Of a DNA stretch of 64,000 nucleotides, positions 43,984-64,000 are shown piece after piece. Position numbers and translations under genes: made by a program. The stretch is from NCBI RefSeq assembly GCF_008087665.1, contig NZ_CP042912.1:6200001-6264000 (forward strand), read 5' to 3'. The stretch is from Mariniblastus fucicola (GTDB taxonomy: Bacteria > Planctomycetota > Planctomycetia > Pirellulales > Pirellulaceae). The notes beneath the pieces were generated by a model. That model searched no databases. It was not told the origin of the DNA and was given only the letters and a program-made list of their open reading frames with translations. How positions within the stretch are numbered: the first letter of the stretch is position 1; each line of letters begins with the position of its first letter.

Positions 43984-44595
43984 ATGCCGACCGGCCGACA
44001 ACCTCAACCAACGTTTCGAGACGGCCGATGGATCACCGCTGGCACCGCTTTGGGGGCCGCCTTGATTTCGGCGGCCTGTTTTTCGGGCGCTTTTACGTCG
44101 TTCGAAATGAATGAAGCGAACTGGAAAGCCGTTTTGTTGGCAAGAATGACGTTCACTTTCCTGACCGTGTTTGGCGGGATCTTTGCGATAGCCGCCGGGA
44201 TTCTAAAACCACTGCGAATGTTGTTGGGCGTCGGCGCGGTCGCGGGTTTGATTGCCACAGCGTTTGTATTTTACCCGTGCGGCATTCAGTATCTCGCAGG
44301 ACCAGAAGTTCACATGGGCGAAATCAGTCAAGTCAACATCCCGGCAGAGCAATTAATTTACCGAATGCTCCCGGAATCGAAGACTGTTTCATCCGAACGC
44401 AAGCAACTTCCGGTTCAAGTTCACTTGCGACCCGGCGATGGCAAGCGGTACATCATCAAAGCTTATCTTCGCGACCTGAAAGATTCTGGTCTTGGAACAG
44501 CGACGCCAAACGGACGATGGAGGATCGTTTCACTGCCTTATCTGGAACGCATTCTTTCCGCAGAGCAAGCATCGCCGGCGCACACGAATCCGTAA
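43984..44595 (+). CDS. Small membrane protein, three predicted segments
   Basis: 203 residues from ATG 43984. Longer frames upstream overlap the divergent PH-domain gene. Membrane segments are predicted at about 16-38, 53-73 and 76-98. The remaining 100 residues face out, with an ordered beta-rich tail (LPVQVHLRPGDGKRYIIKAYL, in parts). I do not recognise the family. It converges on the HEAT-repeat gene, with 17 bases between the two stops. Function is unknown. Confidence 0.72.
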   Translation: MPTGRQPQPTFRDGRWITAGTALGAALISAACFSGAFTSFEMNEANWKAVLLARMTFTFLTVFGGIFAIAAGILKPLRMLLGVGAVAGLIATAFVFYPCGIQYLAGPEVHMGEISQVNIPAEQLIYRMLPESKTVSSERKQLPVQVHLRPGDGKRYIIKAYLRDLKDSGLGTATPNGRWRIVSLPYLERILSAEQASPAHTNP

Positions 44596-44612
44596 CTGGC
44601 CCTCGGAAAAGT

Positions 44613-46880: not shown

Positions 46881-47061
46881 GACCAGAGGAGATCGTCCAG
46901 ATCGACCGCCATACATGAGGGGCTGGAGCGGTGGACCCGATTGTACTTGCTGCGTTGCCGTTGTCGTCTGTGAATCAACAAAAATGACAGGTCGCTCGGC
47001 CTGTACCTCAGACCAAACGATTTTCCGATCCAGAGACTGGCTGGACCATTTCGAACGTGTT

Positions 47062-48477
47062 TTAGACAGGTTTCAAACGTGTTTTCCACCTTTGAACCTG
47101 CGCCTCTACCCTCGTTGGAGCCGTCGAGCCGTAGCTCTGGAACGCGGCGACCGCATTGGCGACTCCCAGTACAGAGTAAACCGACTCGTCCAAGCTGGCG
47201 TCAAAAGATTGAAAATCCTCGACGGCCAATTGGGAAAGTGTGACGGTTTTTTCGGTTGCGAGCTTTACCAGACCGCCGATCAGATGATGAGCCTTCCGCT
47301 GCGGCGTACCACGCTTGATCAGGAACTCCATCAGCGTCGTCGCGTCGAGGAATCCTCGTTCCAGGCGGCTCTCGATCGACTCGCGTTTTAGCCTCGCTCC
47401 AGCAACCAGCGGAGCCGCGACTTCCAGACAGCCCTCGATCGTATCGATGGCTTCGAAGAAAGGCCGTTTGTCTTCCTGCAAATCGCGGTTGTATGCCAGC
47501 GGCAAGCCCTTCGTCAGCACCAGCAGCGTCTGCAGCGAGCCAATCACCCGAGCCGATTTGCCTCGAGTCAACTCCAGCACATCCGGATTGATTTTCTGGG
47601 GCATGATCGACGAACCGGTACAGAATTCGTGCGGCAACGAGATAAAATCGAACTCGACGGTCGACCACAAAATCCACTCTTCGGCCCAACCGCTCAAGTG
47701 GATACCGATCGTCGAAAGACAGAAACAGGTTTCCAGCAAATAGTCCCGATCGCTGGACGAATCGATGCTGTTTTCGACCACGCCCTCAAACCCGAGCCGA
47801 CGGGCGCTGTTGTCGCGATCAATGTTCAGCGTCGTGCCGGCCAACGCAGCGGTTCCCAGGCTGCACAAGTTGACTCGTTTGCGGCAATCGGCCAAACGGT
47901 CGCGATCTCGCTGAAATTTTTCGATGTAAGCCAGCCAATAGTGCGGTGCGACAACAGGTTGGGCTCGTTGCAAATGCGTGTAAGCCGGCAGAATGACTTC
48001 GGCGTCGAGCTCGCAGCGGCAGAGGAAAGCCGACTGTAAATCTTTCAGCGCCGCATCGATTCGATCAATCGCGTCGCGAACCCACAATCTCATGTCGGTC
48101 GAAACCTGATCGTTGCGGCTGCGGCCTGTGTGCAATTTGCGTCCGACGTCGCCAAGCTTGTCGATCAAAGCCTGCTCGATATTCATGTGAATGTCTTCGA
48201 GTTCCGGACGCAGGGGAAAACTGCCTTCGTCCAGCTGCGACTTAATCTCGGTCAAGCCAGCGATAATCTGCTGGCACTCTTCCGCCGTCAAAATGTCCTG
48301 ATCAGCGAGCATTTGTGCGTGCGCGATACTGCCAGCGATATCCTGCCGATAAAGTCGGTGATCAAAACTGATACTTTCGGTGAACCGCTCGACACGTCGG
48401 TCGACAGCGGCATCAAATGCGCCACTGCGGCTGGGACTGGCTGCGGAATCTGGGTTGGGCTGGTCGGTTTGGGACAA
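47062..48477 (-). CDS. argH: Argininosuccinate lyase
   Basis: 471 residues, near the family's usual 460, from a TTG at 48475-48477 with AGAGG five bases upstream. The frame runs further, but the extra residues are Arg-rich and unlike ArgH. The fumarase/ASL signature is [29 protein letters not shown], with the substrate-binding Arg and Asn, is also present, along with THLQRAQPV. It releases arginine and fumarate from argininosuccinate, the last step of arginine synthesis. It is not next to other arg genes. The carB gene, which makes the carbamoyl phosphate precursor, is 1.1 kb away on the opposite strand, but the two are not an operon. Confidence 0.95.
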
Positions 48478-48680
48478 AGTGACCTCTCGGATGTCTTGAG
48501 CGTTACGCGAAAATCGTAGCCTGAATCGTAGCCTGAAGTGCGGGCGAAAAATTCCTGTGCGCAGATTCGGCAGCTTGCCGTAAAATCGTAGCAAACCTGA
48601 CCATTCCCGAAAGGTTCAGACTCGCGGACCCTTCAGGCGATACAATAACGACCGACTTTTTCTCTCACGGTAATCCCGAC

Positions 48681-49391
48681 ATGGCCAAATCTCAAATCTC
48701 TTTATCAGCCCTGTTCGCGATCGCGATCATTACTCTGGTTTCTTCGGCTGCTCTCGCGGCTCCGCAAGACGACGTTTTTAAACGTCCGGGCGAAGAAACC
48801 AAAAAGAACGACACCACTGAGAGCCAGGCCTCGGAAACGGCCCAGCCCAAATCGACGGCTCCGACTTCGATAACGAAAGAGTCATCGGCGTCCATCGAAC
48901 AGCAGAGCGATGGCTGGTTCACGATCGTCGATGATGCCTCAATGGTTGAACTCCGATTCCCTGGCGATCCGTCTTACAAGGAGATCACGTTCTCACCGGT
49001 CGCGGGCCGACCCGCCGTCGTCAACCATCTGTATAACACGCTGATCAACAAGGAAATCTCCGTCGACTATTCGTGGATGGAACTCCACGAATCCCCGACC
49101 GGCAAACAGCTCAACGACGCGCTCGATGGTGCTGTTAAAGGAGCCGTTGTGAACGTGTTCGGACAGCTGGACGTGATGACGAAAATCAAGTCCGGAAAAG
49201 TCCCGGGCCGCGAGTTCAGTTTCACTTTCCCGATCCAGACTCCGGATGGAAAGACGCATATGCTGTCTGGCAAGTCACGGATTTTCATCAAGGACAATCG
49301 TCAGTTCCAGCTGAACGTGATCGTGCCTCAGGGCAAAGAAGACGATACTCTGACCAAGAAACTGTTTGAATCGTTCATGATCCGCATGTAG
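48681..49391 (+). CDS. Secreted hypothetical protein
   Basis: 236 residues, with a clear signal peptide ending ALA (about 26). The next 55 residues are Ser/Thr/Lys/Glu-rich and look disordered (KKNDTTESQASETAQ). The C-terminal 150 residues form one compact domain with FTIVDDASMVELRFPGD, GAVKGAVVNVFGQLD, and LFESFMIRM at the end. It resembles small planctomycete secreted domains, without a name I can give. Upstream, TACAAT at 48641-48646 is a plausible -10 box. It shares a 203-base divergent region with argH. Function is unknown. Confidence 0.78.
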   Translation: MAKSQISLSALFAIAIITLVSSAALAAPQDDVFKRPGEETKKNDTTESQASETAQPKSTAPTSITKESSASIEQQSDGWFTIVDDASMVELRFPGDPSYKEITFSPVAGRPAVVNHLYNTLINKEISVDYSWMELHESPTGKQLNDALDGAVKGAVVNVFGQLDVMTKIKSGKVPGREFSFTFPIQTPDGKTHMLSGKSRIFIKDNRQFQLNVIVPQGKEDDTLTKKLFESFMIRM

Positions 49392-49533
49392 CCGATTGCT
49401 CAGGGTGGCACCGGCTTTCCGCCGTTGTCCACATCCGCGACCCTTGCCAATCCCGGCAAACTCGATCCACCCGAAGTTCTCGGCTCAAAATCTGGCTCCG
49501 CCCATTGAAGAAAGGCGCTGTCTACTGGTACCC

Positions 49534-49555
49534 TTGGGAAATTTTATTTTCCCAA
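49534..49555 (+). promoter_or_regulatory. Hairpin in carB leader
   Basis: TTGGGAAA pairs with TTTCCCAA over a TTTTAT loop (8 bp), 46 bases before the carB GTG. There is no trailing T run, so it is not an ordinary terminator. It could be an mRNA stabilising or regulatory stem, or an end structure of the preceding gene. Confidence 0.4.
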
Positions 49556-49601
49556 CGAGAGAGCGAATTATCGCTGCTCAAAGCCCCACGGGACTGCTCG
49601 A

Positions 49602-52600
49602 GTGCCACGTCGCGACGATATCAAAAAGATCCTGCTAATCGGATCCGGGCCAATCATCATTGGCCAAGCCTGTGAATTTGACTATTCGGGAACCCAGGCC
49701 TGCAAAGCGCTTCGGGAAGAAGGCTATGAAGTTGTCCTGGTGAATTCCAATCCGGCCACGATCATGACCGATCCGGAAGTCGCCGATCGGACTTACATCG
49801 AACCGCTGCAATGGGAGATCATCGAAAAGATCATCGAGAAAGAGCGTCCGTGTGCGCTGCTTCCGACCCTCGGTGGACAGACTTCACTGAACCTGGCTCT
49901 TCGACTGCACGAAAACGGCGTGCTCGAAAAGTACAACGTCGAAATGATCGGTGCCAAGGCCGATGTGATCGACAAAGCAGAAAACCGCGACCGGTTCCAG
50001 AAAGCAATGCGAGCCTGTGGACTCGACATCTGCCGCGGCGAAACCGTCAAGGATGTCGAACACGCCAAACGCGTCCTCGAAGAAGTCGGCCTTCCCACCC
50101 TGATCCGTCCAAGCTTCACGATGGGAGGCAGCGGCAACGCGATCGCCTACAACCGTGACGAGTTCGAAGTTCTTGTCCGCCGTGGCATCGATCTTTCACC
50201 GACCAATGAAGTGCTGATCGAAGAATCCATCATCGGCTGGAAAGAGTACGAGATGGAAGTGATGCGTGATTTCGATGACAACGTCGTGATCATTTGCGCG
50301 ATCGAGAACCTGGACCCGATGGGGATCCACACGGGTGACTCGATTACCGTCGCGCCAGCACAGACGCTGTCGGATAAAGAGTACCAGCGGATGCGTGATG
50401 CGTCGGTCGACATCATGCGTGAGATCGGCGTCGAAACGGGCGGTTCCAACGTTCAGTTCGCTGTCGATCCAAAAACCGGGCGGATGATCGTGATCGAAAT
50501 GAACCCACGTGTCAGTCGCTCAAGTGCACTCGCGTCAAAGGCCACCGGTTTCCCGATCGCCAAGATTGCTGCCAAGCTTGCCGTTGGGTACAGCCTCTGG
50601 GAGTTGCCAAACGATATCACGCAGAAAACGAAAGCCTGTTTCGAGCCGACGATCGATTATGTCGTCACCAAAATCCCGCGTTTCACTTTCGAGAAGTTCC
50701 CCGAAGCCGATCATACGCTGACGACTCAGATGAAGAGCGTCGGCGAAACGATGGCGATCGGACGGACGTTTAAAGAGTCGTTCCAGAAAGCGCTCCGCGG
50801 TCTCGAAACGGGGCACTTTGGATTCGGCTGTGACAAGAAAGATGTCTTCGACACGGAAGACTTTCCGGATCTGGACGAAATCAAGTCGAAGCTGATGGTT
50901 CCCAACGCGGAACGTGTTTTCTACATTCGCTACGCTCTCAAACACGGCATGACGGCGGAAGAAGTTTTCGAACTGACGAACATCGACCCGTGGTTCCTGC
51001 ATCATCTTGTCGGCATCGTGGACATCGAGAACGAACTTCGCGCTTCGTCACTGAGCGAAATTGAACAGCCGTTGATGCGTCGGGCAAAGCAAGCCGGTTT
51101 TTGCGATCGCCAGATGTCGCATATTTGGGGCACCAGCGAAATCGCTGTTCGGAATCGCCGTAAAGAGCTTGGCGTTATCCCAACCTACAAATCGGTTGAT
51201 ACGTGTGCGGCCGAGTTCGAAGCCTACACGCCGTACTTCTATTCGACTTACGAACAGGAAAACGAAACGCCTCCCAAGGGCGACAAGAAACGCGTCATCG
51301 TGCTCGGCGGCGGTCCCAACCGCATCGGTCAGGGAATTGAGTTCGACTATTGCTGCTGCCACGCAAGTTTTGCGCTTCGCGAGATGGGCATCGAGTCGAT
51401 CATGGTCAACTCGAATCCGGAAACTGTCAGTACGGACTACGACACCAGCGATTTGCTGTTTTTCGAACCGCTGACGGTCGAAGACGTTCTGAACATTTGC
51501 GACGATGTACAACCTGATGGCGTGATCGTTCAGTTCGGTGGCCAGACGCCGCTGAACCTTGCGAGGGCGCTTTCGGATGCCGGCGTGCCGATCATCGGAA
51601 CCAGCGTCGATACGATCGAAGCCGCAGAGGATCGCGAAAAGTTCCAGAAACTGCTGCATGAGCTGGATCTTAAACAGCCCGCCAACGGCATGGCCAACGA
51701 CATGCCGAATGCTCGAAAAGTCGTCGCCGAAGTCGGCTATCCGGTTCTGGTCCGTCCCAGCTTTGTGCTTGGCGGTCGCGCGATGGAGATCTGTTACGAC
51801 AAAGCCCAGTTCGAGCGATTCGTGCTGGAGGCGTTCATCGTTTCTGGCGGACAGCCCGTTCTGATCGACAGCTTCCTCGAAGAGGCCATCGAAGTTGACG
51901 TCGACTGTATCGCTGACGGCGACGACGTGATTATCGCAGGGGTCATGGAACATATCGAAGAGGCCGGCGTCCACTCCGGCGATTCCGCGTGCTCGATTCC
52001 ACCGTATTCGCTGCCCGAGGAAACGATTGCAGAAATTCGCCGTGCCACGATCGCAATGGCCAGGCGACTGAACGTCGTCGGGCTGATGAACGTGCAATTT
52101 GCGGTCAAGAAAGACAAGGAATCTGGCCAGAACACGGTCTATGTTCTGGAAGTCAATCCACGCGGAAGCCGTACCGTGCCGTTCGTCGCCAAAGCCACCG
52201 GCGTTCCGGTCGCCAACATCGCGGCAAAGGTCATGGCTGGCGAAAAACTGAAGTCGCTCGGAATCACCAAGGACTTGACGCCGCACGATTACAGCGTCAA
52301 GGAAAGCGTGTTCCCGTTCCGCAAGTTCGCGGGCGTAGACATCGTGCTGGGACCGGAGATGCGCAGTACCGGGGAAGTGATGGGCGTTAGCAGTCAGTTC
52401 CCTGTCGCGTTTGCGAAATCGCAACTGGCTTCTGGTGTCGAGATTCCGGAAGGCGGAACGGTCTTCATTAGCGTCCGCGGGGTACACAAAGAACGTGTCG
52501 TCGAAGTCGCCAAAAAGCTTCGCGGGTTGGGCTACAAACTGATCGCGACACCAGGAACGGCTCAACGTCTGCAGGAATCCGGTATCGAAGCAGAGCCGAT

Positions 52601-52853
52601 CAAGAAGCTTCGGGACGGCAGTCCGAACCTGTTGGACCGGATGAAGGATGAAGAAGTGGATTTGATCCTGAATACGCCCAACGGTAAAGGCGCTCGGACC
52701 GATGAAGGAATTATCCGCGCGGCGGCCGTTCAACATGGCGTCCCATGCATCACAACGATCCAGGCCGTTGAAGTCCTTGTCGATTCACTGGTCGTGATGC
52801 AGAAAGAATCGATGTCTGTCGAGTCGCTGCAGGAACGCTACTCGAAATCGTAG
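49602..52853 (+). CDS. carB: Carbamoyl-phosphate synthase, large subunit
   Basis: 1083 residues, the normal length, starting at GTG 49602 with [18 protein letters not shown]. Two homologous halves each show the ATP-grasp P-loop-like [13 protein letters not shown] / [14 protein letters not shown] and [14 protein letters not shown] / [14 protein letters not shown]. The C-terminal MGS-like regulatory domain (residues about 930-1070) has [27 protein letters not shown] and GVPCITTIQ. With the glutaminase CarA, not in this window, it makes carbamoyl phosphate for arginine and pyrimidine synthesis. Catalytic regions look complete. The gene is followed by a good terminator. Confidence 0.97.
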
Positions 52854-52904
52854 AGCAACTCCCAATCGGATATCCACGATTTCAAGCCAGGAATTCCTGA
52901 CACG

Positions 52905-52942
52905 AAAAAAGCCGACCTGTTCCCAGGTCGGCTTTCGTCTTT
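52905..52942 (+). terminator. Rho-independent terminator after carB
   Basis: AAAGCCGACCTG and CAGGTCGGCTTT form a 12-bp stem around TTCC, followed by CGTCTTTC. The stem begins 54 bases after the carB stop and lies between carB and a convergent secreted-protein gene. Its T-rich tail is moderate. Confidence 0.85.
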
Positions 52943-52960
52943 CAATATCGCAATTGCGTT

Positions 52961-54082
52961 CTACTGAGTTGCGTAGTAGGCGTGCAGCCAGGCAAGCCGA
53001 TAGGCCAGCGTCGCGACGACTTCGTTGTCAAAGTCTTCATCAATGATGCTGCCCAGTTCGGCATAGTCTTCTGCACGATCAATGAAGCACTGGCTTCCGC
53101 CGTTTTCGATGGCATAGGCGATTTCGTGATCGACAATGCACTCAAGAACTGCGACCAGTTCGTCGATCAGAAGATCTGCTTCGGGAGTATCAACCCATTC
53201 GAGATAGCACACTGCGTAGGCCGCTCCGATGAACATCGATCCACCGTATCGCGACAGACGATTTCCGCTCGGTTGCTCCCAAAAGCAGTCGTTCTGCATC
53301 CAGTTAACGCAATCAAGTGATCCCTGTGCATAGTATGCTTCGCAATCGGTAAGCGTAGCAACGTACGATTCAAGACTCGCTTCCACGAGCGCCAATTGAT
53401 CAAAGCAACTCACCGGGGATGGGTCACAGCCATCACCGAAGGAAAGCTGGCCGTCCCCGACGATGCCCGTCGGCGACACTGTTCCCGTCGCCGATCTTTC
53501 GATGGCAAACTCAAAACGCGTTACGTTGAGTCCCTCAGTGTTTTGCCAACCAAACGTGGAGGGGACGGCTGCCCCTGCAGCATCGGTTGCGTTGGGCAAT
53601 GGAATCGAGGCGACAAGTGTCTCACCATCGTATGCGTTGAAGGAAACAGTTGCGTCACTTTCTGTAGACAGGTATTTGAAACAGATACCTTCCAACGGTC
53701 CCAACGCGGTCGTATTCGGCGTGAAGACGGCGGGCCGTCCGTCGCCTGCGTCATCGAAAAAGGTGCCGGCAGAAAACGGAGAAGTTTCCGAACGAAAAAC
53801 GGAAACGGCAGCAGGGTCGTTACCGTCCTGGGAAACCTCTCCCCAAACGAGGGACTGAGGGGAGGGAACCGGGCCAAAAAAGTTGGCAGAAATCTGATTG
53901 CCGTCGAAATCTACGAACGATTCGAAGTCATCATCGAGAACGCTACCGCAGACAGCAGCGGCCCATGCATCGCAGTCTGTAAAGGTTTCGCCTTGGGCAA
54001 AAATTAATGCCGGGGCAGCGGCGAAAACAGCCATGGCGGTTGCTGCAACCCGAAATGGATTGAGGAAGGTGTGTAAACTCAC
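52961..54082 (-). CDS. Secreted Cys-rich hypothetical protein
   Basis: 373 residues from GTG 54080-54082, with AGGAG seven bases upstream. The signal peptide ends IFA before Gln30. The mature part has about a dozen Cys (FTDCDAWAAAVCGS, GICFKY, GDGCDPSPVSCFDQ, DCEAYYAQGSLDCVN, DCFWEQ, VCYLEW, LECIVD, SQCFIDR), suggesting several disulfide bonds in the periplasm or outside. The N-terminal half is beta-rich with an FESFVDFDGNQISANFFG segment. The C-terminal half is helical (ADLLIDELVAVLECIVDHE, in parts). No known family is recognised. Confidence 0.8.
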   Translation of the reverse strand: MSLHTFLNPFRVAATAMAVFAAAPALIFAQGETFTDCDAWAAAVCGSVLDDDFESFVDFDGNQISANFFGPVPSPQSLVWGEVSQDGNDPAAVSVFRSETSPFSAGTFFDDAGDGRPAVFTPNTTALGPLEGICFKYLSTESDATVSFNAYDGETLVASIPLPNATDAAGAAVPSTFGWQNTEGLNVTRFEFAIERSATGTVSPTGIVGDGQLSFGDGCDPSPVSCFDQLALVEASLESYVATLTDCEAYYAQGSLDCVNWMQNDCFWEQPSGNRLSRYGGSMFIGAAYAVCYLEWVDTPEADLLIDELVAVLECIVDHEIAYAIENGGSQCFIDRAEDYAELGSIIDEDFDNEVVATLAYRLAWLHAYYATQ

Positions 54083-54336
54083 GTCGCATCTCCTGGATCT
54101 TAATAAGAAGGATGGATATCGATGTGAATTCTCATTCGCAAAAAACGCGAATCAAGATACGTTTGGCGTGGAAAACGCCCTGGCAGAATGTCCGACGGTC
54201 ATTTTGGCCTTAATTCCCTGCAGAATTCGGGTTTCATGGCAAAAAAGTAAATCGCGAAAAAATTCCGGATTCTTCGCACGACGTTCCAAAAACGGCACGA
54301 AAATGGATTTAGAAAGCGTGACCAATATCGATCTGA

Positions 54337-55410
54337 CTATTGGCTCACCCGGACCAATGAAAAGTTTCGCACTGTTATTTTCGCCGCTTGCGCGCCAATC
54401 ACAAAGCCAATGCGATTCTTGTTCCTGACAACATCGGATGCCCAAAAAGTGAACTCATACGTTTCAAATTTGTTCGCCGGGTAAATCTCTTTATAGAATC
54501 CGATGCTGTGCCAGTCGTCTTCGTTAATTGATGCCTGGACACCGACCATGGCATCATCATTGTCAGCCTTGATTTCGAAGCTGACCTTGTATTCCGCACC
54601 GTCTTCCAGATCCAGGCCCGTCTGGTAAGTCTGCACGTGCCAGTTTGCACCCCCCGCGTGAGTTACGTCGAATACAATCGATTCCCCATCGGCACTGATG
54701 GATCCTTTGCCTTTTTCAAACTGCTCGAAAGTCCATGCGTCCACTTCGTTTGTCGGCTTGAGCAGATTTTCCGAAGATCGCTTGATGCGAATGTTGCGAT
54801 ACTCCATTTTGCCTCGGTCGCCTTCGACTCCAATCGGGCCTTCGGCGGGAACTTTGAATTTCTCCTCGAGGACTTCTCCATTGCAAGTGCAACGGGCTGT
54901 TTCGCCACTGACAACGACGATCAATTCGTTCCAGTCATTGGGCTTAAACTTCTTGAGATCCTTGTACGGTCCGGTGTTGGGATAGTCCCGACATTGAAGC
55001 TGGTGACCGCGGATGAAGACGCCGCTGTCCGCGTTGTTGGCGGCCCGAAACTCCAGACGCAGCTCAAAATCGCCTTTGACGACCGCGTCCGAGTACAACA
55101 TCTGGACTTTGCGACTTTCAGGCGGAACGGTTACGACCAGAATACTGTCCTGGGCAACGAAACGACCGTCGTCGGACTTCAACTTGCCATCAAAGTTGAC
55201 TTTCGTTTCAACGATCGGCCAGGCCGGCGCGTTCGGATCGGCCTTCTTCCAGCCGGCGCGACCTTTCTTTTGAGCTTCCGTAGTTGGCAGGTAGCTCCAC
55301 CCTGTCAGATCCTTGCCATTGAAGAGGCTTTCGTAGCCGTCAGTTTGCGCGGAAGCACAAGCCGTTGAAAACAGCGTCAGAAATACGAACGCCAGTCGAA
55401 GTAATTTCAC
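54337..55410 (-). CDS. DUF1080 (LamG-like) secreted protein with extra C-terminal domain
   Basis: 357 residues. The signal region MKLLRLAFVFLTLFSTACASAQ could be cut at 21/22 (ASA-Q), though TAC might serve as a weak lipobox. The DUF1080/3-keto-disaccharide hydrolase domain (about 25-210) has SLFNGKDLTGWSY, KGDFELRLEFRAANNADSGVFIRG (in parts), NDWNELIVVVSG and GPIGVEGDRGKMEYRNIRIK (in parts). A second beta domain (about 220-357) resembles a carbohydrate-binding module: WTFEQFEKGKGSISADG, then NWHVQTYQTGLDLEDG. It is an exported putative sugar hydrolase or carbohydrate-binding protein of a family expanded in planctomycetes. Catalytic role and substrate are open. Confidence 0.85.
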   Translation of the reverse strand: MKLLRLAFVFLTLFSTACASAQTDGYESLFNGKDLTGWSYLPTTEAQKKGRAGWKKADPNAPAWPIVETKVNFDGKLKSDDGRFVAQDSILVVTVPPESRKVQMLYSDAVVKGDFELRLEFRAANNADSGVFIRGHQLQCRDYPNTGPYKDLKKFKPNDWNELIVVVSGETARCTCNGEVLEEKFKVPAEGPIGVEGDRGKMEYRNIRIKRSSENLLKPTNEVDAWTFEQFEKGKGSISADGESIVFDVTHAGGANWHVQTYQTGLDLEDGAEYKVSFEIKADNDDAMVGVQASINEDDWHSIGFYKEIYPANKFETYEFTFWASDVVRNKNRIGFVIGAQAAKITVRNFSLVRVSQ

Positions 55411-55578
55411 GTGTCATCCCAATTTAAAGTTCTATCCCGGAGTCATCTTAAATCGTGAGAATTCATTTTGCAAAACGACACTATGCGCGTACGGCATGAC
55501 AAACCGTGAAGTCTGTGAATGACGAACCGAACGGGAAACGCTGGCTTTTGCCGGTCGAACTGGCAGCCGAAAGATCGT

Positions 55579-56940
55579 TTAGCCCAAACCAACCAGCTGT
55601 TCGCCGACATTGTCGATGGCTTCAAGAGCGATTTCCATGTACTCCGGGCTGTCCTCGCGAAGCAACTCTTCGACATGAGTTTTCGGATCGTCCAACCACT
55701 TGGTGAACGCCGCTGCAAACAGGTTCACAAACTCATAGTCGCAAACTTGCAGGCTGCGCACGAAACTGCGATTGATCGCCGGGATCAAGTGATCAGAGAC
55801 CGAACCGAGCGACGACAGCGCCGACAACCCCGCGTAGATCACGTGCTTCATTTTGCTACCGAGCATTTCGCCAGCTGTTTGCAAAGTGCGATCATCCAAC
55901 TGCCCCAGCCGCGTTAATGCACACATGGCTTTTGCCCGGACGACGTGGTCACGATGTTGAGTAAGAAACCGTAGCTCTTCGACGACTGTCTCGCCAACGT
56001 CGACAACCTGCTCGGACGCAGAAATCGCGTTGAGCAATACAGGTTCACTGTCCGATCGCAATTTGTTCGCCAGCGCGGCTTGCGTTTCGGCTATCGCCGT
56101 ATCATCGTTTTGCAGGTGACGCACGGCAATGATTTGCGTGGAAAGCGACTTGCTATCCGTCATCTCCAACCACTTGCCTTGCGGCTGATCCAATAGCTTC
56201 GCGCTGGTCTTCGGCTGAAAGAATGAATCGCCTGTTTTGTTCAGGAACTTGAGCGACTTGAGCATCGTTCGCTTGAGTTCAGGCTCCAGGCCTTCCGACC
56301 AAAGCGGCGTTTTTTCGTCGCGAGTCCAGGCAACGATCGCGTTGGCATAGACGACGCCTTGCGAGTCAAGAAACGGTCGCGGGATCATTCGCCATTGAGT
56401 CGTGTCCCAGAAACTCGGACTCTGGGAAACGAAATCGAGGTTGCTTTGCAGCACACCCAACCCGGTCGCGATCACCGCCAGATCGACGAACTCGGGAAAG
56501 TGAGCGTAGGCGTATTTGTGGGCGTGCAAGAGATCGCTGACAACACCATGGACCAACGCTGCGATAGCGAGATCCGGTTCGGATCGAAGATCGCTCTTGA
56601 GCGTGATCACCCGTTCGCTGTCGTTCTTGAATTCATACTCGTTCGGCAGACCGCCGAGACCTTCGCAGGTGCCGCCGCCTCAGCCACCGCCGCCGCATTT
56701 TTCCTGCGGCTCGATCGCGACACGGACCTGCAAACCACCCACGCTGTGCGAGAGATGTTTTCCGGCGAACGCAACGATCTCCTCTGGCGTTTTGCCTTGC
56801 AGGTCACGCAGCTGATCGGATCGAAGAACCGGCAATCGCATTCGTTCGAAGCCAATCGATTCGGCGATCTCCTGAAGATGAAACTCGAGCCGTGCTTTCT
56901 CGTGGTCGCCGAGATTGGGTTTGGGTTTGAAGAAGACCAT
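55579..56940 (-). CDS. HEAT-like protein with in-frame TGA; candidate selenoprotein
   Basis: The ATG is at 56938-56940 with GGAAAG four bases upstream. The frame is open for 86 codons, meets TGA at 56680-56682, and stays open for 366 codons to 55579. If the TGA encodes selenocysteine, the protein has 453 residues with Sec87 in K-C-GGGG-U-GGG-T-C. The N-terminal 86 residues (helical, then QVRVAIEPQEKC) are not a family I recognise. After residue 110 helical repeats with ELRFLTQHRDHVVRAKAMCALTRLG (in parts) look HEAT-like. A Cys-to-Sec swap between two flanking Cys is typical of redox selenoproteins. Ancestral TGC, TGG or GGA changed to TGA, or a sequence error, is the alternative. It has no signal peptide, and its role is unknown. 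Confidence 0.65.
56638..56682 (-). promoter_or_regulatory. Candidate bacterial SECIS element
   Basis: Reading the minus strand from the TGA (56682-56680), 27 bases follow. Then comes the loop GGUCU (56652-56648), closed by the perfect 5-bp stem UCGGC/GCCGA (56657-56653 with 56647-56643). A short CU/AG pairing may extend it across a two-base bulge. Bacterial SECIS elements in published surveys place the apical loop about 16-37 bases after UGA, with a G in the first loop positions. The E. coli fdhF loop AGGUCU is similar. This is a sequence match and not proof. A competing ACCU-GCGA-AGGU hairpin lies upstream. Confidence 0.5.
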
Positions 56941-57213
56941 GTAACTTTCCGAATTGGTGTGAACCGAAGAGGCTTCAAAACTGAACAAAATTCAGGACAA
57001 AAGCGACGTCAACTTAGCTGAAACGTGATCAAAACGCAGCGCGAATCCTGACTGTAGATTCGTCATTCGATTTGGCGTATTACCCGGCCTATCGGACCGG
57101 CAGCGTGGATTTCAACAGAAAACCATGAATTCTTTGTCCCCAAACGCGTCGTTTATGACAGTAGTGGTGTTCAACAATCGAGTTTCCGAATTCGTTTCCC
57201 CAGGGCGTCGTTC

Positions 57214-57759
57214 GTGGATCAGAAGGCACACAAAGCATTTGAAATTTTGGCTCGCGAGAATTCGCGAATGCTGTTGGTTTATCTGCGAAGTCTCGTTCGC
57301 GACGAATCGGCGGTGGACGACCTGTTCCAGGAAGCCATGGTTGTCGCCTGGAAACGGCTCGACGAATGTGACCTCGATAGGCCATTCGGTCCGTGGCTCA
57401 GAGGTATTGCGTCGCGACTGGTGCTGGCGCACTATCGAAAGCAAAAGTCTTTACCCGTCGTCGTGCAAGAAGCCGTACTCAATGTCGTTGATCGACATTT
57501 CAGGAACATCAATCTGTTGGCAGGCGATACATGGGACGACAAGGTGGCGGCGTTGCGTGAGTGCATTGATGCGTTGCCCGAAAAGCACAAAGTCACGATC
57601 AGAGGAAAGTATTTTGAAGGCCTGTCGGTAGCTGGCGTCGCGGAACGGTTCGATGTGACGATCGAAGCTTGCAAGAAGCGTATGCAGCGAGGTCGTACGA
57701 TGCTGGCAGCGTGCCTGAAATCGAAAGGCGTGCTTTCAGCATCGGAGGCAGAACTGTGA
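57214..57759 (+). CDS. ECF-type RNA polymerase sigma factor
   Basis: 181 residues from GTG 57214. Region 2 (about 18-85) has LLVYLRSLVRDESAVDDLFQEAM (in parts), then WLRGIASRLVLAHYRK. Region 4 (about 120-170) has LPEKHKVTIRGKYFEGLSVAGVA and EACKKRMQRGRTML, the helix-turn-helix (shown in parts). It belongs to the planctomycete-rich ECF group typically found with a one-pass anti-sigma gene, and that gene starts inside its stop codon. The target regulon is unknown; the following genes are the obvious candidates. A weak AGGGCG lies about ten bases upstream of the GTG. Confidence 0.9.
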   Translation: MDQKAHKAFEILARENSRMLLVYLRSLVRDESAVDDLFQEAMVVAWKRLDECDLDRPFGPWLRGIASRLVLAHYRKQKSLPVVVQEAVLNVVDRHFRNINLLAGDTWDDKVAALRECIDALPEKHKVTIRGKYFEGLSVAGVAERFDVTIEACKKRMQRGRTMLAACLKSKGVLSASEAEL

Positions 57760-58793
57760 GCGATCCGGCAAACAATCGGGTTAATGACCTGCTTTCCGCC
57801 TGGCACGACGGCCCGGCAAACGCCACGGAGTTTGGCGACAAACGGCTGCTTGATGAAGCAAGCCAATCCGTTGCTGATTCGCTGTTGGTCCATGGTCTAC
57901 TGATGGATGCCGGCCGACGAGAAGCCGACCGTGCTGAAGATCGCGTTGGTTCTGTGATGAGCCACATCGATTCCGGGTTCGCCAGTGAGGCTTCTCATCC
58001 GATCCTTGCCAACACTCGACAGCCACGACGTCGCCAGTTTGCGATCCTGACATGGTCCGTGGCGATCGCGACCGTGGTGATGCTGATGTTTGTCTTTTCC
58101 AGCCCCGACCAGAGCGTTTCATCTGCGATGGAGTCGCTTGAGAAAATCGTCGAAGCCGCCTCCAAGAAAATCGACCGGACGTACTCGGTTCGCCTGGTCG
58201 AGGAATACGCCCGTGGTCAACGACCTGGCAACCTTCCTGCGGATCTCCGATCCCGAAAAGCGAAAGACCAGATCGACGGGGCGACGCTATACGTTCGCGG
58301 CGCCAATCAATACGTGATGACGACCATGTTGGATTCAGGAGAAAAGCGAACCATCGGTTGCGACGGATCGCAGAGTTGGGCGATGCGAGAAAACGGCCCA
58401 GTTCATGTCAGCTCTGACATCGAACGGTTTCGAGGCGGATTGCCTGGAGGGCAGCAGGACATACCGTTCCTGAACCTTCAGAATCATCTGTCGCAATTGC
58501 AAACTGGCTATGAAATTGAAATGGGTAAGCAACAGGAAACCGTAGCCGGCGTCGTCCTTTCCCAACTGATTGGAGCCCGTAAGTCTCGTGACGTTCGCGG
58601 CCCCAAGCAGATTGAAATCTGGTTCGACTCAAGCACTGGAACCGTGCATCAAATGTTGCTTGACGGACTTCCGCGAGGCCGCGGTGGCCCCAAGAGCGTC
58701 ATGCTGGAACTGACAGACCTGTCCCGGCTGCCCGATGGCTTCTTTTCTCATACTTCCCATCATGAACCCGGTCGGAGAATCAAGAGTGACTAG
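57756..58793 (+). CDS. Anti-sigma-like one-pass membrane protein
   Basis: 345 residues from GTG 57756, overlapping the sigma stop as GTGA. A longer frame to 57669 runs inside the sigma gene. Residues 1-90 are cytoplasmic and acidic, with a helical region LLSAWHDGPANATEF then SQSVADSLLVHGLLM that fits a sigma-binding domain. A membrane helix is at about 94-113. The exported half (about 120-345) is beta-rich with ATLYVRGANQYVMTTML, GSQSWAMRENGPVHV and ENEMGKQQETVAG-like features, and may sense a ligand. No zinc motif is visible. Likely role: holding the ECF factor at the membrane until a signal arrives. Confidence 0.78.
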   Translation: MSDPANNRVNDLLSAWHDGPANATEFGDKRLLDEASQSVADSLLVHGLLMDAGRREADRAEDRVGSVMSHIDSGFASEASHPILANTRQPRRRQFAILTWSVAIATVVMLMFVFSSPDQSVSSAMESLEKIVEAASKKIDRTYSVRLVEEYARGQRPGNLPADLRSRKAKDQIDGATLYVRGANQYVMTTMLDSGEKRTIGCDGSQSWAMRENGPVHVSSDIERFRGGLPGGQQDIPFLNLQNHLSQLQTGYEIEMGKQQETVAGVVLSQLIGARKSRDVRGPKQIEIWFDSSTGTVHQMLLDGLPRGRGGPKSVMLELTDLSRLPDGFFSHTSHHEPGRRIKSD

Positions 58794-60312
58794 AGCCAGT
58801 TCCAAAACTCGCAGGCGAACGCTTCGACTTTGCAGGTGCAGCTATGTCATCGCAATACTGTTGGCGATCGTGGCATCAGATGTTGCGGCAGCCCAAAACA
58901 GACGTGGCGAACGCGACAATCGCGGCAATCGCGGCGGCAGTCGCCTTGGCGGCTACAAAACGCCTCCGCCGGCCAACAAAGTTCCGCACCACCCATTCAA
59001 TGTTCTGGTCGGCAGGCTCACCGGAGAAAGCGCGACGATTCGCGTGCTGTTCCATCACGACACAGAAGTCCATTTGCGCTATGGCGAGCAGTCCGGACAG
59101 TACTCCAACGAGACGAAAGTTCACCGATTGAGCAAAGGCGAACCATTCGATTTCGTTGTCGGTTCGCTCAAAAAGAACACTCGCTATTTTTATCAAATTG
59201 CGTATCTGTTGGATGGCAAAACGTTGGAGAGTGACGAATTCAAATTTCATACGCAGCGTTCGGCCGACAGTCCTTTCGTATTCACCGTTCAAGCCGATTC
59301 CCATTTGGACGAAAATACCAGCGGCGACGTTTATCTGCGGACACTCGGTAATGCTCTCAGCGATCAGCCGGACTTCCACTTTGCTCTCGGCGATACGTTT
59401 ATGACCGGGAAGTACGTCCAGCCGGAACTTTCCGAACCGCAATATCTTGCTCAACGATACTACCTCGGGCAGCTTTGCCATTCGGCCGGTTTGTATTTTG
59501 CACTCGGAAACCATGACGGCGAATCTGGTAACCGCGGATCAAATGTATGGGCCACAAGCACACGCAAGAAGTACATCCCCAACCCGTTTCCCAACGACTT
59601 CTATTCGGGCAACGAACGGAGCGAAAAGAATGTCGGCTTGCCAGAGAACTACTACCAGTTCGAATGGGGAAACTGCCAGTTCATCGTGCTCGATCCGTTT
59701 CGACACACCACCATTCGGCGACGCGGCGGATCGACCGACAACTGGAACTGGACGCTCGGTGAAGATCAGTATCGCTGGCTGAAGCGTTCATTGGAAACGA
59801 GCGATGCGGATCTGAGATTCGTTTTCCTGCACCACCTGGTCGGAGGCAGCGAACGCAACCAGCGCGGCGGCGCCGAAGCGGCAGCGTTTTGGGAGTGGGG
59901 AGGACAGGGTGAATCGGGCGAAGATGATTTTTCCAAACAACGTCCAAACTGGGCCAAACCGATCCATCAATTGTTGGTGGACCATGGAGTCGATGTCGTC
60001 TTCCATGGACACGATCACATGTTCATCAAACAGGATCTCGACGGGATCGTTTACCAGCTGGTTCCGCAACCAGGCCATCCTCGTTCTGGCACCAGAAGCG
60101 CTAAAGAGTACGGCTATCTCAGCGGTGACATTCAGGGCAGCAGCGGCCACATCAGGGTACGAGTCAAAGATGGCTCCGCTCGCGTCGACTACGTTCGGGC
60201 CTATTTGCCAGCGGCAGAACGCGGAAGCCGTCGTAACGGCGACACAAGCTATTCCTACATGCTGTCCACGAAGTCTTCATCAGGAAAACCATCAACCGAG
60301 CCCAAACAATGA
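58786..60312 (+). CDS. Secreted metallophosphoesterase
   Basis: 508 residues from GTG 58786, with GGAG eight bases upstream. It overlaps the anti-sigma gene by eight bases. A membrane/signal segment spans about 19-36 and ends VAAAQ. An Arg/Gly-rich stretch (RRGERDNRGNRGGSRLGG) follows. The N-terminal purple-acid-phosphatase-type Ig-like domain (PFNVLVGRLTGESATIRVLF, in parts) precedes the catalytic domain. Metal-binding motifs are in order: ADSHLDE, ALGDTF, GNHDGES, HHLVGG and FHGHDHMF. It probably hydrolyses phosphate mono- or diesters in the periplasm. It is followed by an ATGA-overlapping gene, so it belongs to the sigma-factor unit. Confidence 0.9.
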   Translation: MTRASSKTRRRTLRLCRCSYVIAILLAIVASDVAAAQNRRGERDNRGNRGGSRLGGYKTPPPANKVPHHPFNVLVGRLTGESATIRVLFHHDTEVHLRYGEQSGQYSNETKVHRLSKGEPFDFVVGSLKKNTRYFYQIAYLLDGKTLESDEFKFHTQRSADSPFVFTVQADSHLDENTSGDVYLRTLGNALSDQPDFHFALGDTFMTGKYVQPELSEPQYLAQRYYLGQLCHSAGLYFALGNHDGESGNRGSNVWATSTRKKYIPNPFPNDFYSGNERSEKNVGLPENYYQFEWGNCQFIVLDPFRHTTIRRRGGSTDNWNWTLGEDQYRWLKRSLETSDADLRFVFLHHLVGGSERNQRGGAEAAAFWEWGGQGESGEDDFSKQRPNWAKPIHQLLVDHGVDVVFHGHDHMFIKQDLDGIVYQLVPQPGHPRSGTRSAKEYGYLSGDIQGSSGHIRVRVKDGSARVDYVRAYLPAAERGSRRNGDTSYSYMLSTKSSSGKPSTEPKQ

Positions 60313-61049
60313 TTAGAAAATACAATCTGTTTTCCGTCGCTATCGCGATCACCATCCTCGCGATCTCTGCGGCCTCACCGGCCCTCTCGCAGCAAACTCA
60401 AACGAATCACGCAAACCAGCCGACGCACAAGCCCCGCATCAGCGACACGATCATGGCGAACGTCTATGCAGACAATTCGTTCAAGCTGTACATCAATGGG
60501 GAGCTGGTCGCAGTGGACTCGATCGCGTTCATTCCGCACAACGTCGTGTCAGTAGACATTTTGCCTGCGTATCCGATGACGATCGCTGTCATGGGTATCG
60601 ACAACGCTGATCCTGAAACGGGAATGGAGTACGCCAATACGAATATTGGCGACGGTGGTTTCATTCTGAAGCTGGGTGACGGCACGGTCACCAATGCGAC
60701 GTGGAAAGCGAAGAAGTTTTCTTGGGGACCGGTTGATGGCGACACCAGGAATCCCAAAGTCGAGAGCATTCCAGTGCCCGAGAACTGGTACGCGACTGAC
60801 TACGACGACAGCCAGTGGCCTAACGCGAAAGAGTTTACTGAACAGGAGGTTGGACCAAAGGCTCCCTTTTTCGAACATGACTTCGAGGGTGCAACATTTA
60901 TCTGGTCGGACGATGTGAAGCTCGACAATCTCGTGCTCTTTCGAACGGTCGTCAAGTCTCCACCTGACGGCAAAGTCCGCTCTGATTTTCGCGGCCTAAC
61001 CGATGTGGTTCCGCAAAAACCGGAGGGACGTGGGCGGCGAAAGCGGTAG
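60309..61049 (+). CDS. Secreted hypothetical protein of the YHYH/metallophosphoesterase unit
   Basis: 246 residues; ATG overlaps the previous stop (ATGA). A signal peptide ends ALSQ at about 27. MANVYADNSFKLYINGEL, DILPAYPMTIAVMG and IGDGGFILKLGDGT show a beta-sandwich, carbohydrate-binding-like domain of the type found in exported planctomycete proteins. WYATDYDDSQWPNA is a second region of the same kind. The basic tail ends GRGRRKR. Position between a phosphoesterase and a YHYH protein suggests a shared extracellular task. No catalytic residues are evident. Confidence 0.78.
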   Translation: MIRKYNLFSVAIAITILAISAASPALSQQTQTNHANQPTHKPRISDTIMANVYADNSFKLYINGELVAVDSIAFIPHNVVSVDILPAYPMTIAVMGIDNADPETGMEYANTNIGDGGFILKLGDGTVTNATWKAKKFSWGPVDGDTRNPKVESIPVPENWYATDYDDSQWPNAKEFTEQEVGPKAPFFEHDFEGATFIWSDDVKLDNLVLFRTVVKSPPDGKVRSDFRGLTDVVPQKPEGRGRRKR

Positions 61050-61105
61050 TCATTGCGATTCTATCAACTCAACAGGCAACTTAACTTGAACCAAAAGATG
61101 ATCCC

Positions 61106-63064
61106 ATGAAGTCAACTTCAACGAATCGCCATCAAGGATCGACTGCCGGTCGACCGGTGAACCAACAAAGTCGCCCGGAGTCGTGCAGCATGCCCCGGAG
61201 CGAACCATTTCACATCGCCTCCAGTTCCGCAGCGCTACCTCACGGTATTCCGCAGCGGAAACGGCAAGACCGCGACGCAGTTTGTGTATCGCGATTTGAT
61301 GTCAATGGATCGACTCTCTGTGCGATTCCGGGCCACCTTGTTGATCGCCTTTTCAAGCTGGCATTTCCCGTCATGGTCTTGCTGGTCGTGTTCCTGATTT
61401 CGTCGAAGTTCGCGAGCGCTCACGAAGGTCATTCGCATACTCCTTCTGTAAGGATGCAGGAAAAAATCGTCGAGCTCAACACGCAGTCTTCCAGCCTCCG
61501 GTTCGCCGCTTTCCAAAGGAAAGAATCAACAGCCCAACCGGAGCTTGCAAAACTGTTCGAGCCGTTCGCGGAGAAGGTCGACGTTCGATTTGATCGCGAC
61601 AATTTGTATGTAGAATCCAACGGCATGCCGGATCATCCCATGATGGTCGGCATCACCGCTTGGCAGCAGCAAGTTCCGTTGCCACAGAACTACACAGGTG
61701 AAAACGCCTGGCGAATTCCTCTGAATCCGGTTCCCGCAAAGAATCCGATGTCAGCAAAGTCGCATTTTTTTCGTGGAGCCATTGCGTTGGCTGCCAACGG
61801 CGTTCCGATTTTCAATCCGATCAAGAACGACGGCAAGACCGACACGCTGCTTGCCGGTGAACTCGATCAATGGGGAGGCCACTGCGGACGTGCCGACGAC
61901 TACCACTACCATATCGCCCCAGTGCATCTTGAGAAAATTGTTGGCGAAGGCAACCCTGTCGCCGTGGCACTCGATGGTTATCCGATATACGGCTACAACG
62001 ATCCAAATGGCAAACCGCCGACGAATCTTGACTGGCTCAACGGTCACGAAGGTCCAGACGGAAATTACCACTACCACGCCACGAAAACGTATCCCTACCT
62101 CAACGGCGGATTCTACGGAGAAGTCACCGAACGCGAAGGCCAAGTCGACCCTCAACCACGAACAGCAGGAGTCCGGCCGGCGCTTCGCGGGCTCAGAGGC
62201 GCAAGAATCAATGGCTACGAAAACCCGGAACCCGGTCGTCACATCGTACGATACGAAGTCAACGGCGAAGAACATTCGATTGACTACACCGTTGAAGAAA
62301 ACGGATCGGCAACGTTCAAGTTCATTTCCCCCAACAGCACGACGACGGAAACCTATGAACCGCGGCAACGGGAGAATCGCCGTGGTGAAAGGAACAGTGA
62401 TCGGGGCGCAAATTCGCCTGCGAACGAACCACGTGGCGAGCGAGGTCCTCGCAGAAACGGTCGAGGCAACGAAGGCGATTCGCTCGTGCGAGCTCTCGAT
62501 TCCGATCGAAGCGGGGCGATCGAAGCAGACGAAATCGAAAAAGCTGCTTTGGCGTTGCAGTCAATGGACCGCAACGGCGATGGAGAGATCAGTCGCGAGG
62601 AATTGCGTGGCGACGACGAAAGAGGCGAGAGACGCAGTCGACAACGTGGCGATGGTCAAGGCAGTCAACGCGATCGCGGGCGAGCAAACGGTTCACGCGG
62701 TCCTCGGCCTGACGACGGACCACGCCAACCGTGGATTTTGGTGCACGCTGGAGAGATCGACCTCAATGCGGACAACGTCATTGCTCGCGATGAAATCGTC
62801 GGTGAAGCCACGAAAGCTTTCGCCAGCTTCGATGTCAACAACGATGGCCAACTGAACACTGAGGAGCTTGGCATTCGCGGCGGATCAAAATCGGCAATGG
62901 CTGGCTTTTTGAAAGGACATTCAAAAGAGATCGACCGCGATGGAAACGGCGTCCTTAGCAAAGCCGAAGTCATCAACAATGCCGAGAGAATGTTCAACAA
63001 AATGGACCGGGACAGTGACGACCAGATATCCGCAAGCGAAATGGAGGCTGCCAAACGTCGCTGA
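61106..63064 (+). CDS. YHYH-domain protein with EF-hand repeats, secreted
   Basis: 652 residues from ATG 61106. The export signal is late (about 84-105, LAFPVMVLLVVFLISSKFA), so translation may start farther in, for instance near 61373. The YHYH domain spans about 170-350, with DDYHYHIAPVHLEK, then YPIYGYND, then GNYHYHATKTYPYLNGG. The final third holds about six EF-hand loops (DSDRSGAIEADE, DRNGDGEISREE, DLNADNVIARDE, DVNNDGQLNTEE, DRDGNGVLSKAE, DRDSDDQISASE), predicting calcium binding. Arg/Gly/Asn-rich linkers separate the two halves. It is probably a calcium-binding surface or periplasmic protein. The YHYH function is not established. Confidence 0.85.
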   Translation: MKSTSTNRHQGSTAGRPVNQQSRPESCSMPRSEPFHIASSSAALPHGIPQRKRQDRDAVCVSRFDVNGSTLCAIPGHLVDRLFKLAFPVMVLLVVFLISSKFASAHEGHSHTPSVRMQEKIVELNTQSSSLRFAAFQRKESTAQPELAKLFEPFAEKVDVRFDRDNLYVESNGMPDHPMMVGITAWQQQVPLPQNYTGENAWRIPLNPVPAKNPMSAKSHFFRGAIALAANGVPIFNPIKNDGKTDTLLAGELDQWGGHCGRADDYHYHIAPVHLEKIVGEGNPVAVALDGYPIYGYNDPNGKPPTNLDWLNGHEGPDGNYHYHATKTYPYLNGGFYGEVTEREGQVDPQPRTAGVRPALRGLRGARINGYENPEPGRHIVRYEVNGEEHSIDYTVEENGSATFKFISPNSTTTETYEPRQRENRRGERNSDRGANSPANEPRGERGPRRNGRGNEGDSLVRALDSDRSGAIEADEIEKAALALQSMDRNGDGEISREELRGDDERGERRSRQRGDGQGSQRDRGRANGSRGPRPDDGPRQPWILVHAGEIDLNADNVIARDEIVGEATKAFASFDVNNDGQLNTEELGIRGGSKSAMAGFLKGHSKEIDRDGNGVLSKAEVINNAERMFNKMDRDSDDQISASEMEAAKRR

Positions 63065-63246
63065 CCGAACGCGCTTCCCCAAGCCGCGAACTTGCGAGCA
63101 TTCATCCGCCGCAGCCACGACAGTGTAAATTCGCGTCGTGGCGACCGATGATCTTGCAAACTTCCGACGCCGCGTAAAAGATAGCCTTGGCGAAGGCAAC
63201 GATTGCTCATGCCTTTTGCCTTTGCATTACAGCACGAGTTTGCACC

Positions 63247-63987
63247 ATGTTTTCAAACACTCCCTTCCTCCAATCGCCCAAACTGATCTTTCACGGCACG
63301 TACCACAAAATGGGTACGGTTTGGATGATGCGAGTGCTGGAGAAAGTCGCCGCTCACTGGAAACTTTGCTTGCAAAAATCCAACGAACACGGCGACTCAT
63401 TGAACGCCGGCACGGATATCCTGTTCGCCAACCATTCGCATCTGGATCTGCAGCAGCTGGGTGACTTCGCGGGCTCGCACATGATCCGCGACCCACGGGA
63501 CTGCGTCGTGTCGGGATACTTCTATCACCTGTGGACCGAGGAAGCGTGGGCTCGTCAGCCACAGCCCCGTTTCGACGGTCGTTCCTACCAGCAACACCTC
63601 CAAAGCCTGAATCAATCCGATGGTTTGGCGGAAGAGATCAGGCAGTTTTGCCGCTACGCCAAAACCTATTCGTTGCGTGAATGGGACTATGACGACGAAC
63701 GAATTTTCGAAATCAAATATGAAGATCTGCTAGCCGATGAGCAGGCTGTTTTCACGAAGCTGTTCGAGCATTACGGATTCTCTGAGCGTGCGGTGCAGAA
63801 AGCCATTAAACTCGCGGAACAATGCAGTTTTGAGAAAGTCTCTGGGCGAGTCGTTGGACAATCGGACGCGAAAAGCCATCTCCGCAGCGGACGTCCCGGA
63901 CAGTGGAAAGATGTACTTTCGGAGCGACATCTTGAACTGATCGAAGACTCGTTTGGAGACTTGATCCGGCAGATGGGCTACATTTGA
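63247..63987 (+). CDS. Sulfotransferase-domain protein
   Basis: 246 residues from ATG 63247. A longer frame to 63187 lacks a better signal. The PAPS-binding 5'-phosphosulfate loop is seen as LIFHGTYHKMGTVWM (13-27), and the 3'-phosphate-binding MIRDPRDCVVSGYF is at about 79-92. The end, with GRPGQWKDVLSE and DLIRQMGY, matches the family C-terminus, where GxxGxWK contacts the nucleotide. It transfers sulfate from PAPS to an unknown acceptor, and is cytoplasmic. It lies 182 bases after the YHYH gene, so it may be a separate unit. The window also holds a sulfatase, the opposite activity, 62 kb away. The gene is complete, ending 14 bases before the window end. Confidence 0.88.
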   Translation: MFSNTPFLQSPKLIFHGTYHKMGTVWMMRVLEKVAAHWKLCLQKSNEHGDSLNAGTDILFANHSHLDLQQLGDFAGSHMIRDPRDCVVSGYFYHLWTEEAWARQPQPRFDGRSYQQHLQSLNQSDGLAEEIRQFCRYAKTYSLREWDYDDERIFEIKYEDLLADEQAVFTKLFEHYGFSERAVQKAIKLAEQCSFEKVSGRVVGQSDAKSHLRSGRPGQWKDVLSERHLELIEDSFGDLIRQMGYI

Positions 63988-64000
63988 CGTCGCCTTCGCG

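Follow-up and report, generated by a model that had tools for sequence, protein, structure and literature searches.

Organization of the locus

The window (the whole 64,000-nucleotide stretch of the Mariniblastus fucicola genome analysed here) carries on its minus strand a probable selenoprotein gene of 453 codons plus a stop codon (55579..56940), the extent of which is matched by full-length homologues. The gene starts with an ATG at 56940 and is open for 86 codons, at which point there is an in-frame TGA (codon 87; 56680..56682) that we take as a selenocysteine (Sec) codon, followed by 366 open codons and a TAA terminator (55579-55581), a layout that agrees with an earlier note made from the sequence alone. 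The TGA lies in a glycine-rich segment (residues 82-92, CGGGGUGGGTC; 56665..56697), which that note had described as a loop between two cysteines. The motif C-GGGG-*-GGG-T-C is indeed present around the TGA, but its first cysteine is kept in only 24 of 33 homologues with a TGA at this position (the TGA forms; see below), compared with 31 of 33 for the second. C92 is also present in all eight homologues with a cysteine codon in place of the TGA (the Cys forms). Downstream of the TGA there is a hairpin of the bacterial SECIS type (56643..56657, minus strand), and the predicted product consists of an N-terminal zincin-like domain, in which the glycine-rich segment lies, and C-terminal HEAT repeats.

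No conserved operon partner was found when the ORFs of at least 100 aa in the right end of the window (44001-64000) were compared with 17 flanking loci; the matches are to the gene itself and to ORFs that are antisense to it or overlap its edges. Among the 17 loci themselves, four or five Mariniblastus relatives have common neighbours, and further matches occur sporadically, in three to five loci and at differing distances. The flanking genes are thus not conserved, and the genomic context gives no clue to function or substrate. We note that the window also encodes a protein of 767 residues that matches HEAT weakly (44613-46916, minus strand; E 0.00013, below the gathering score) and a 652-residue protein with a YHYH domain and EF-hand motifs (61106-63064, plus strand).

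Conservation of the TGA codon

A search of 40 genomes, including this one, with TGA read as Sec identified a full-length homologue in 22 of the 24 other genomes of the same genus, each with exactly one in-frame TGA; two genomes of the genus (G010 and G014) gave no match. The TGA is at the same column in all 23 genus homologues, the other 22 of which are 40-77% identical to the protein described here, and the segment GG-U-GGG is invariant in the 23-row alignment. The same gene ends with a TGA terminator in 10 of the 23, which argues that TGA remains a stop codon in these organisms and has not been generally recoded. A profile search of 296 genomes of the order (again including this one) gave 12 full-length matches and another 20 that are shorter and weaker. 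Seven of the 12 contain one TGA (three from this genus and four from two other genera) and five have no stop. One of these other genera (g22) has both forms, with TGA in G137, G141 and G276 and Cys in G282. When the species-genome collection was scanned with a pattern, 30 loci emerged: 28 full-length relatives (24 TGA, 4 Cys) and two distant ones.

After removal of copies, the comparison set contains 41 full-length members including this one, 33 TGA forms and 8 Cys forms, and ten of the TGA forms lie beyond the 23 genus homologues. Left out were L075 (a copy of L044), L084 (a copy of L041), 17 loci duplicating genomes already counted, and L094 and L095, which are distant paralogues. The alignment at position 87 that the earlier note had proposed thus gives TGA in 33 members and a cysteine codon (TGC or TGT) in eight, and never Gly or Trp. 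Five of the eight Cys forms have an additional cysteine directly before that at the Sec column. The 33 TGA forms align across codon 87 in one conserved reading frame, and the two sides of the UGA show like divergence at each codon position (0.41/0.29/0.62 upstream and 0.40/0.28/0.63 downstream). The family is spread through the Pirellulaceae; no homologue was found in phages, or in plasmids searched with the residues after the UGA only.

In a quick tree with a midpoint root, in which L033 is on a long branch, the Cys forms are a single clade (SH-aLRT 99) nested in the TGA forms, with moderate support of 81 and 93 at the two deeper forks. The simplest reading of this topology is that a single Sec-to-Cys change accounts for the Cys clade.

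The SECIS-like hairpin

The hairpin has the sequence UCGGC[GGUCU]GCCGA, with a perfect 5 bp stem formed by 56657-56653 and 56647-56643 and an apical GGUCU loop at 56652-56648; the distance from the TGA to the loop is 27 bases, as the earlier note had it. That note likened the loop to that of E. coli fdhF, AGGUCU. In most relatives the stem is 6 bp, the sixth, outer pair forming in 29 of the 31 distinct rows of TGA forms and not in this sequence itself; the loop is 5 nt and the spacing 27. Counting both strands, the window has 2,357 TGA triplets, 814 of which are followed by a SECIS-like hairpin of one kind or another with 5 bp or more, so that a hairpin by itself is weak evidence. The exact stem and loop geometry follows just one of the 2,357, that of codon 87, the pattern having been drawn from that same hairpin. 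What raises the hairpin and the TGA above chance is the conservation of the column (TGA in 23/23 within the genus, and TGA or Cys in 41/41).

The TGA forms can be aligned without gaps through this region, giving 31 distinct rows and, for six pairs, 186 cells. Of these cells 97.8% are paired, compared with 24.2-49.5% when the pattern is slid by one to three columns, and three of the six pairs have changes on both sides. One example is the stem of L041 and L083, CCCAGC[GGUCU]GUUGGG, which in others is CUCGGC[GGUCU]GCCGGG. None of 500 shuffles reached the observed percentage paired or the covariation score; for the number of two-sided pairs and the number of pair types, the observed values were reached in 14 and 19 of 500 respectively, and the shuffles ignore relatedness. 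There are departures among the TGA forms, with a C-A mismatch in the stem of L022 and L023. In the eight Cys forms 75% of the cells are paired, two inner pairs are broken in seven and four sequences, and no pair has two-sided changes. Two Cys forms are exceptions: in L076 the stem is intact and the loop has changed to GGACU, and in L042 the loop is still GGUCU on a stem that is broken. The hairpin thus covaries in the TGA forms and decays in the Cys forms.

At fourfold sites in hairpin columns +9, +10 and +12, the fraction of same-residue pairs that differ is 0.36, 0.0 and 0.33, compared with a reference median of 0.70 over 84 columns, and synonymous constraint is equally strong at the two glycine codons just before the UGA, outside the hairpin (0.36 and 0.32). 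A bacterial SECIS, as described in passages of PMC13188914, has a G within the two leading loop positions and lies 16-37 nt downstream of the UGA, and the loop, spacing and G position seen here fit that model as given there. The published free-energy limit is -7.5 kcal/mol, and the hairpin folds at -7.8 kcal/mol as 17 nt and -8.2 kcal/mol as 22 nt. When the bare 17 nt are folded, 22 of the 33 TGA forms meet this limit and 11 are weaker (L022 and L023 reach only -2.6 kcal/mol), and two of the eight Cys forms (L076 and L077) also pass. The folding check that the earlier note had suggested did not favour the hairpin on a longer stretch: for the 53 nt from the UGA the lowest-energy structure is a different one (z -0.54).

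Selenocysteine machinery

The selenium genes that the earlier note would have looked for are present in this genome, with selA at 555 bits, selB at 356, selD at 265 and a tRNA-Sec of 70 bits with the anticodon UCA. Outside the genus, all four of the TGA-form genomes have selA, selB, selD and tRNA-Sec over the cut-offs, with tRNA-Sec scores of 68-73 bits in these four and this one, and for selA, selB and selD the five Cys-form genomes have weaker matches at most, none of which reaches its cut-off; this comparison covers the genomes other than those of three Cys-form loci (L076, L077 and L081) and of six further TGA-form loci. A tRNA-Sec search of the Cys-form genomes at E 0.001 gave matches of 49-50 bits in three of the five (G279, G220 and G293) to the model, the cut-off of which is 47, with the other two below it. 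These three were rejected because ARAGORN reads the loci as tRNA-Ser (anticodon UGA); it reads the loci of this genome and of G240 as tRNA-Sec (UCA). That tRNA-Ser(UGA) genes can exceed the Rfam tRNA-Sec cut-off makes this threshold an unreliable guide by itself in these bacteria. Outside the genus the Sec machinery therefore goes with the TGA form, in four of four genomes compared with none of five with the Cys form.

Within the genus the picture is less complete: among the 22 other members that carry the gene, selA is over the cut-off in 16 and selB in 19. The six with selA below the cut-off (G002, G003, G004, G019, G022 and G024), three of which also lack a selB match over it (G002, G004 and G024), are all drafts that are 71-92% complete; tRNA-Sec was found in G002, G003 and G019 and not in G004 or G024. 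Conversely, G010 and G014 have selA, selB, selD and tRNA-Sec over the cut-offs and no match to the gene, which reflects either loss or an assembly gap.

Three other observations were made in these searches. There are SelA-like proteins of 194-297 bits, two of them over the selA cut-off, in G285, G040, G121 and G030, genomes in which selB stays under its cut-off, and these may be paralogues of SelA that serve a different role. In G024, L106 matches selD at 358 bits with one in-frame TGA, and probably encodes a Sec-form SelD. In the 11 other genomes with selD over the cut-off, the best match falls within a frame that is open for 726-773 aa, which may point to a fusion.

Domains of the predicted protein

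The earlier note had called the protein HEAT-like, and HEAT repeats are indeed found in its C-terminal part (residues ~279-445; 55606..56106), where there are matches to Pfam HEAT_2 and to PDB alphaRep/HEAT profiles and helical repeats in the model. With E up to 1, HEAT_2 matches 22 of the 23 genus members, the best at 9.5e-8; this protein alone scores 16.8 bits, under the gathering score of 27.7. An AlphaFold2 model of the full-length protein has a mean pLDDT of 88.0 and a pTM of 0.85, and HEAT/ARM-type proteins are among its best 50 matches in a fold search.

The N-terminal domain (residues 1-240; 56221..56940) is predicted to be zincin-like, both from a profile match to an HExxH-bearing paralogue and from the models. 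Positions 3-238 of profile A4, which has 26 rows including one HExxH-bearing paralogue, match such a paralogue (L097) with E 1.4e-31, and a Sec-free planctomycete protein (L096) matches over 3-445 with E 6.5e-52. The zincin-like assignment rests on paralogues; a fold search of the domain model against PDB gave nothing significant (best E 0.52), with zincins (3e11, M32 carboxypeptidase and ACE2) appearing only at E 0.85 and above. The position of the zincin HExxH motif is degenerate here (residues 131-135, HGVVS; 56536..56550, by alignment of the TGA forms), and no HExxH is present in the first 260 residues of any of the 41 members. Among the 33 TGA forms, position 132 is never Glu and position 135 is variable, with His in one; D136 and E150 are kept in all, position 153 is Asp or Glu in all, and H131 is kept in 24. 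As the HExxH zinc site is absent, we regard the protein, from its sequence, as a probable relative of zincin-like proteins and not as a peptidase.

The glycine-rich loop with the predicted Sec lies between predicted strands 70-74 and 100-104, ahead of the helix (122-140) that occupies the place of the former HExxH motif. It is predicted to be disordered, with pLDDT under 50 for residues 82-91 in the full-length model and for residues 80-94 in a 245-residue model of the N-terminal domain (pLDDT 82.5).

The Sec-free paralogues appear to belong to a broad planctomycete family of predicted zincin-like proteins (L048-L062 and L096-L104), in which the domain is found alone (~250 aa) or in longer proteins with HEAT repeats. 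HExxH is present in 12 of 18 examined and absent in six. A Pfam scan of one standalone member gave no domain match. The distant paralogue L095 has HExxH, together with a SprT-like match of E 0.0024 that is below the gathering score.

Interpretation of the in-frame TGA

Insertion of Sec at codon 87 is, from these sequence comparisons, very highly probable, since the conserved frame, the Sec/Cys exchange, the co-occurrence of the machinery and a hairpin with covariation in the TGA forms and decay in the Cys forms all support it. Misreading of the TGA by a near-cognate tRNA as Trp or Gly, with the selenium machinery serving other genes, would also keep both halves of the protein under selection, and the TGA does sit in a run of glycine codons. 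The relatives with another codon at this column nonetheless all have Cys (8/8) and never Trp or Gly, and neither the behaviour of the hairpin nor the distribution of the machinery (4/4 TGA-form and 0/5 Cys-form genomes outside the genus) is what such readthrough would predict; we consider it very unlikely. Two genes, one for an 86-residue protein and a downstream cistron with an internal start such as the GTG at 56610, from which an ORF spans 55579-56610, would be an exceedingly improbable arrangement: over the 79 codons after the UGA no column has a start-like codon in more than 14 of the 33 homologues, glycine codons adjoin the UGA on both sides in all 33, and the Cys forms run straight through the column. 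A nonsense mutation or sequencing error in a pseudogene would account for a frame broken by a TGA, and yet is scarcely conceivable given that all 23 genus homologues, which come from separate assemblies, have this TGA, that the other 22 share 40-77% identity with this one and that both halves are conserved.

We therefore return to Sec insertion, for which the proposed mechanism is that UGA 87 would be decoded as Sec by tRNA-Sec and SelB, directed by the downstream hairpin with its GGUCU-type loop 27 bases past the UGA. The Sec residue would be on a flexible glycine-rich arm of a zincin-type domain without HExxH, and the absence of that motif suggests that the chemistry would be carried by the selenolate. 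This would react with a peroxide, a disulfide or another electrophile on a partner, with C92 (UxxxxC) as the likely resolving residue to which it would most probably be joined in a selenylsulfide, and the C-terminal HEAT repeats would hold the partner. The loss of C92 in 2/33 and of C82 in 9/33 TGA forms speaks against an obligatory selenylsulfide. This functional picture of a mobile selenolate arm, a C92 partner and a HEAT-held client draws on the structural models and is tentative, with somewhat less than an even chance of being right; the overall explanation, that the gene encodes a selenoprotein with hairpin-directed Sec at position 87, is highly probable.

An unlikely variant, although one deserving some weight, is that the protein is a selenoprotein whose Sec, instead of being a free redox arm, is a metal ligand in a remodelled zincin site that it would share with C92, H131, E150 or others of the retained residues. 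The retention of E150, D136 and an acidic residue at 153 in every TGA form and of H131 in 24 of 33 would suit it, as would the models, in which the Sec loop adjoins the sheet preceding the former HExxH helix, whereas the near absence of His at position 135 (1/33), the second His of the motif, and the predicted disorder of the loop argue for the mobile arm. How the arm arose is more doubtful than the arm itself. A zincin-like scaffold may have exchanged its HExxH zinc site for a Sec arm, with HEAT repeats presenting a client and a later clade losing the machinery and changing Sec to Cys. However, six of the 18 Sec-free paralogues also lack HExxH, so that the loss of the motif does not go hand in hand with the gain of Sec and the idea of a direct swap is weakened. 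If the swap were true, this would be a selenoenzyme of a new structural class.

Whatever the chemistry of its product, such a gene would be split by gene calling that treats TGA as a stop. The closely related Sec and Cys forms, which divide along with the machinery, provide a natural experiment both on what selenium adds to a protein and on the decay of a SECIS element once it is unneeded.

Comparison with known systems

The earlier note had suggested that Sec may lie in a family not known to use selenium. This holds, by description, against the 2026 inventory of 119 bacterial selenoprotein families and subfamilies (PMC13188914, Table 1): in the entries as given there none is described as HEAT or zincin-like and none lists GG-U-GGG, the comparison being one of descriptions only. 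No such family is mentioned in passages of PMC1242214, PMC1794560, PMC12013277, PMC5029168 and PMC2398784, those of the last not extending to its GOS_A, and NCBIfam models gave no convincing match to the 23 genus members (the best, a fumarate reductase model, has E 0.0059). According to a passage of PMC4807772, the Rhodopirellula relative P2 has genes to decode Sec. Within these parts of the open-licence PMC literature the selenoprotein family appears to be new, and Table S9 of PMC4807772 may list it unnamed.

In other respects the gene is like the bacterial selenoproteins described in passages of PMC13188914, with an in-frame UGA, a downstream hairpin, Cys homologues and the Sec machinery in the genome. 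It differs in its scaffold, which combines a zincin-like domain without HExxH with HEAT repeats, a combination for which the inventory, as its entries are worded, has no counterpart. The similarity to HEAT_2 proteins (PF13646) is confined to residues ~279-445, which match HEAT profiles and HEAT/ARM-like structures, and here the HEAT part follows a Sec-bearing N-terminal domain. The N-terminal domain is homologous to that of the Sec-free planctomycete zincin-like proteins (L097, L095 and L096), one of which (L095) likewise joins this domain to Pfam HEAT repeats in a two-part architecture, but the glycine-rich Sec loop is absent from all of those aligned. SelD also has Sec in an N-terminal flexible loop, as noted in a passage of PMC13188914, and this is an analogy only, no SelD model being among the NCBIfam matches of the family. 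Thioredoxin-like selenoproteins differ from it in the spacing of Sec and Cys: UxxC and CxxU are absent here, and the motif C-GGGG-U-GGG-T-C is at once CxxxxU and UxxxxC.
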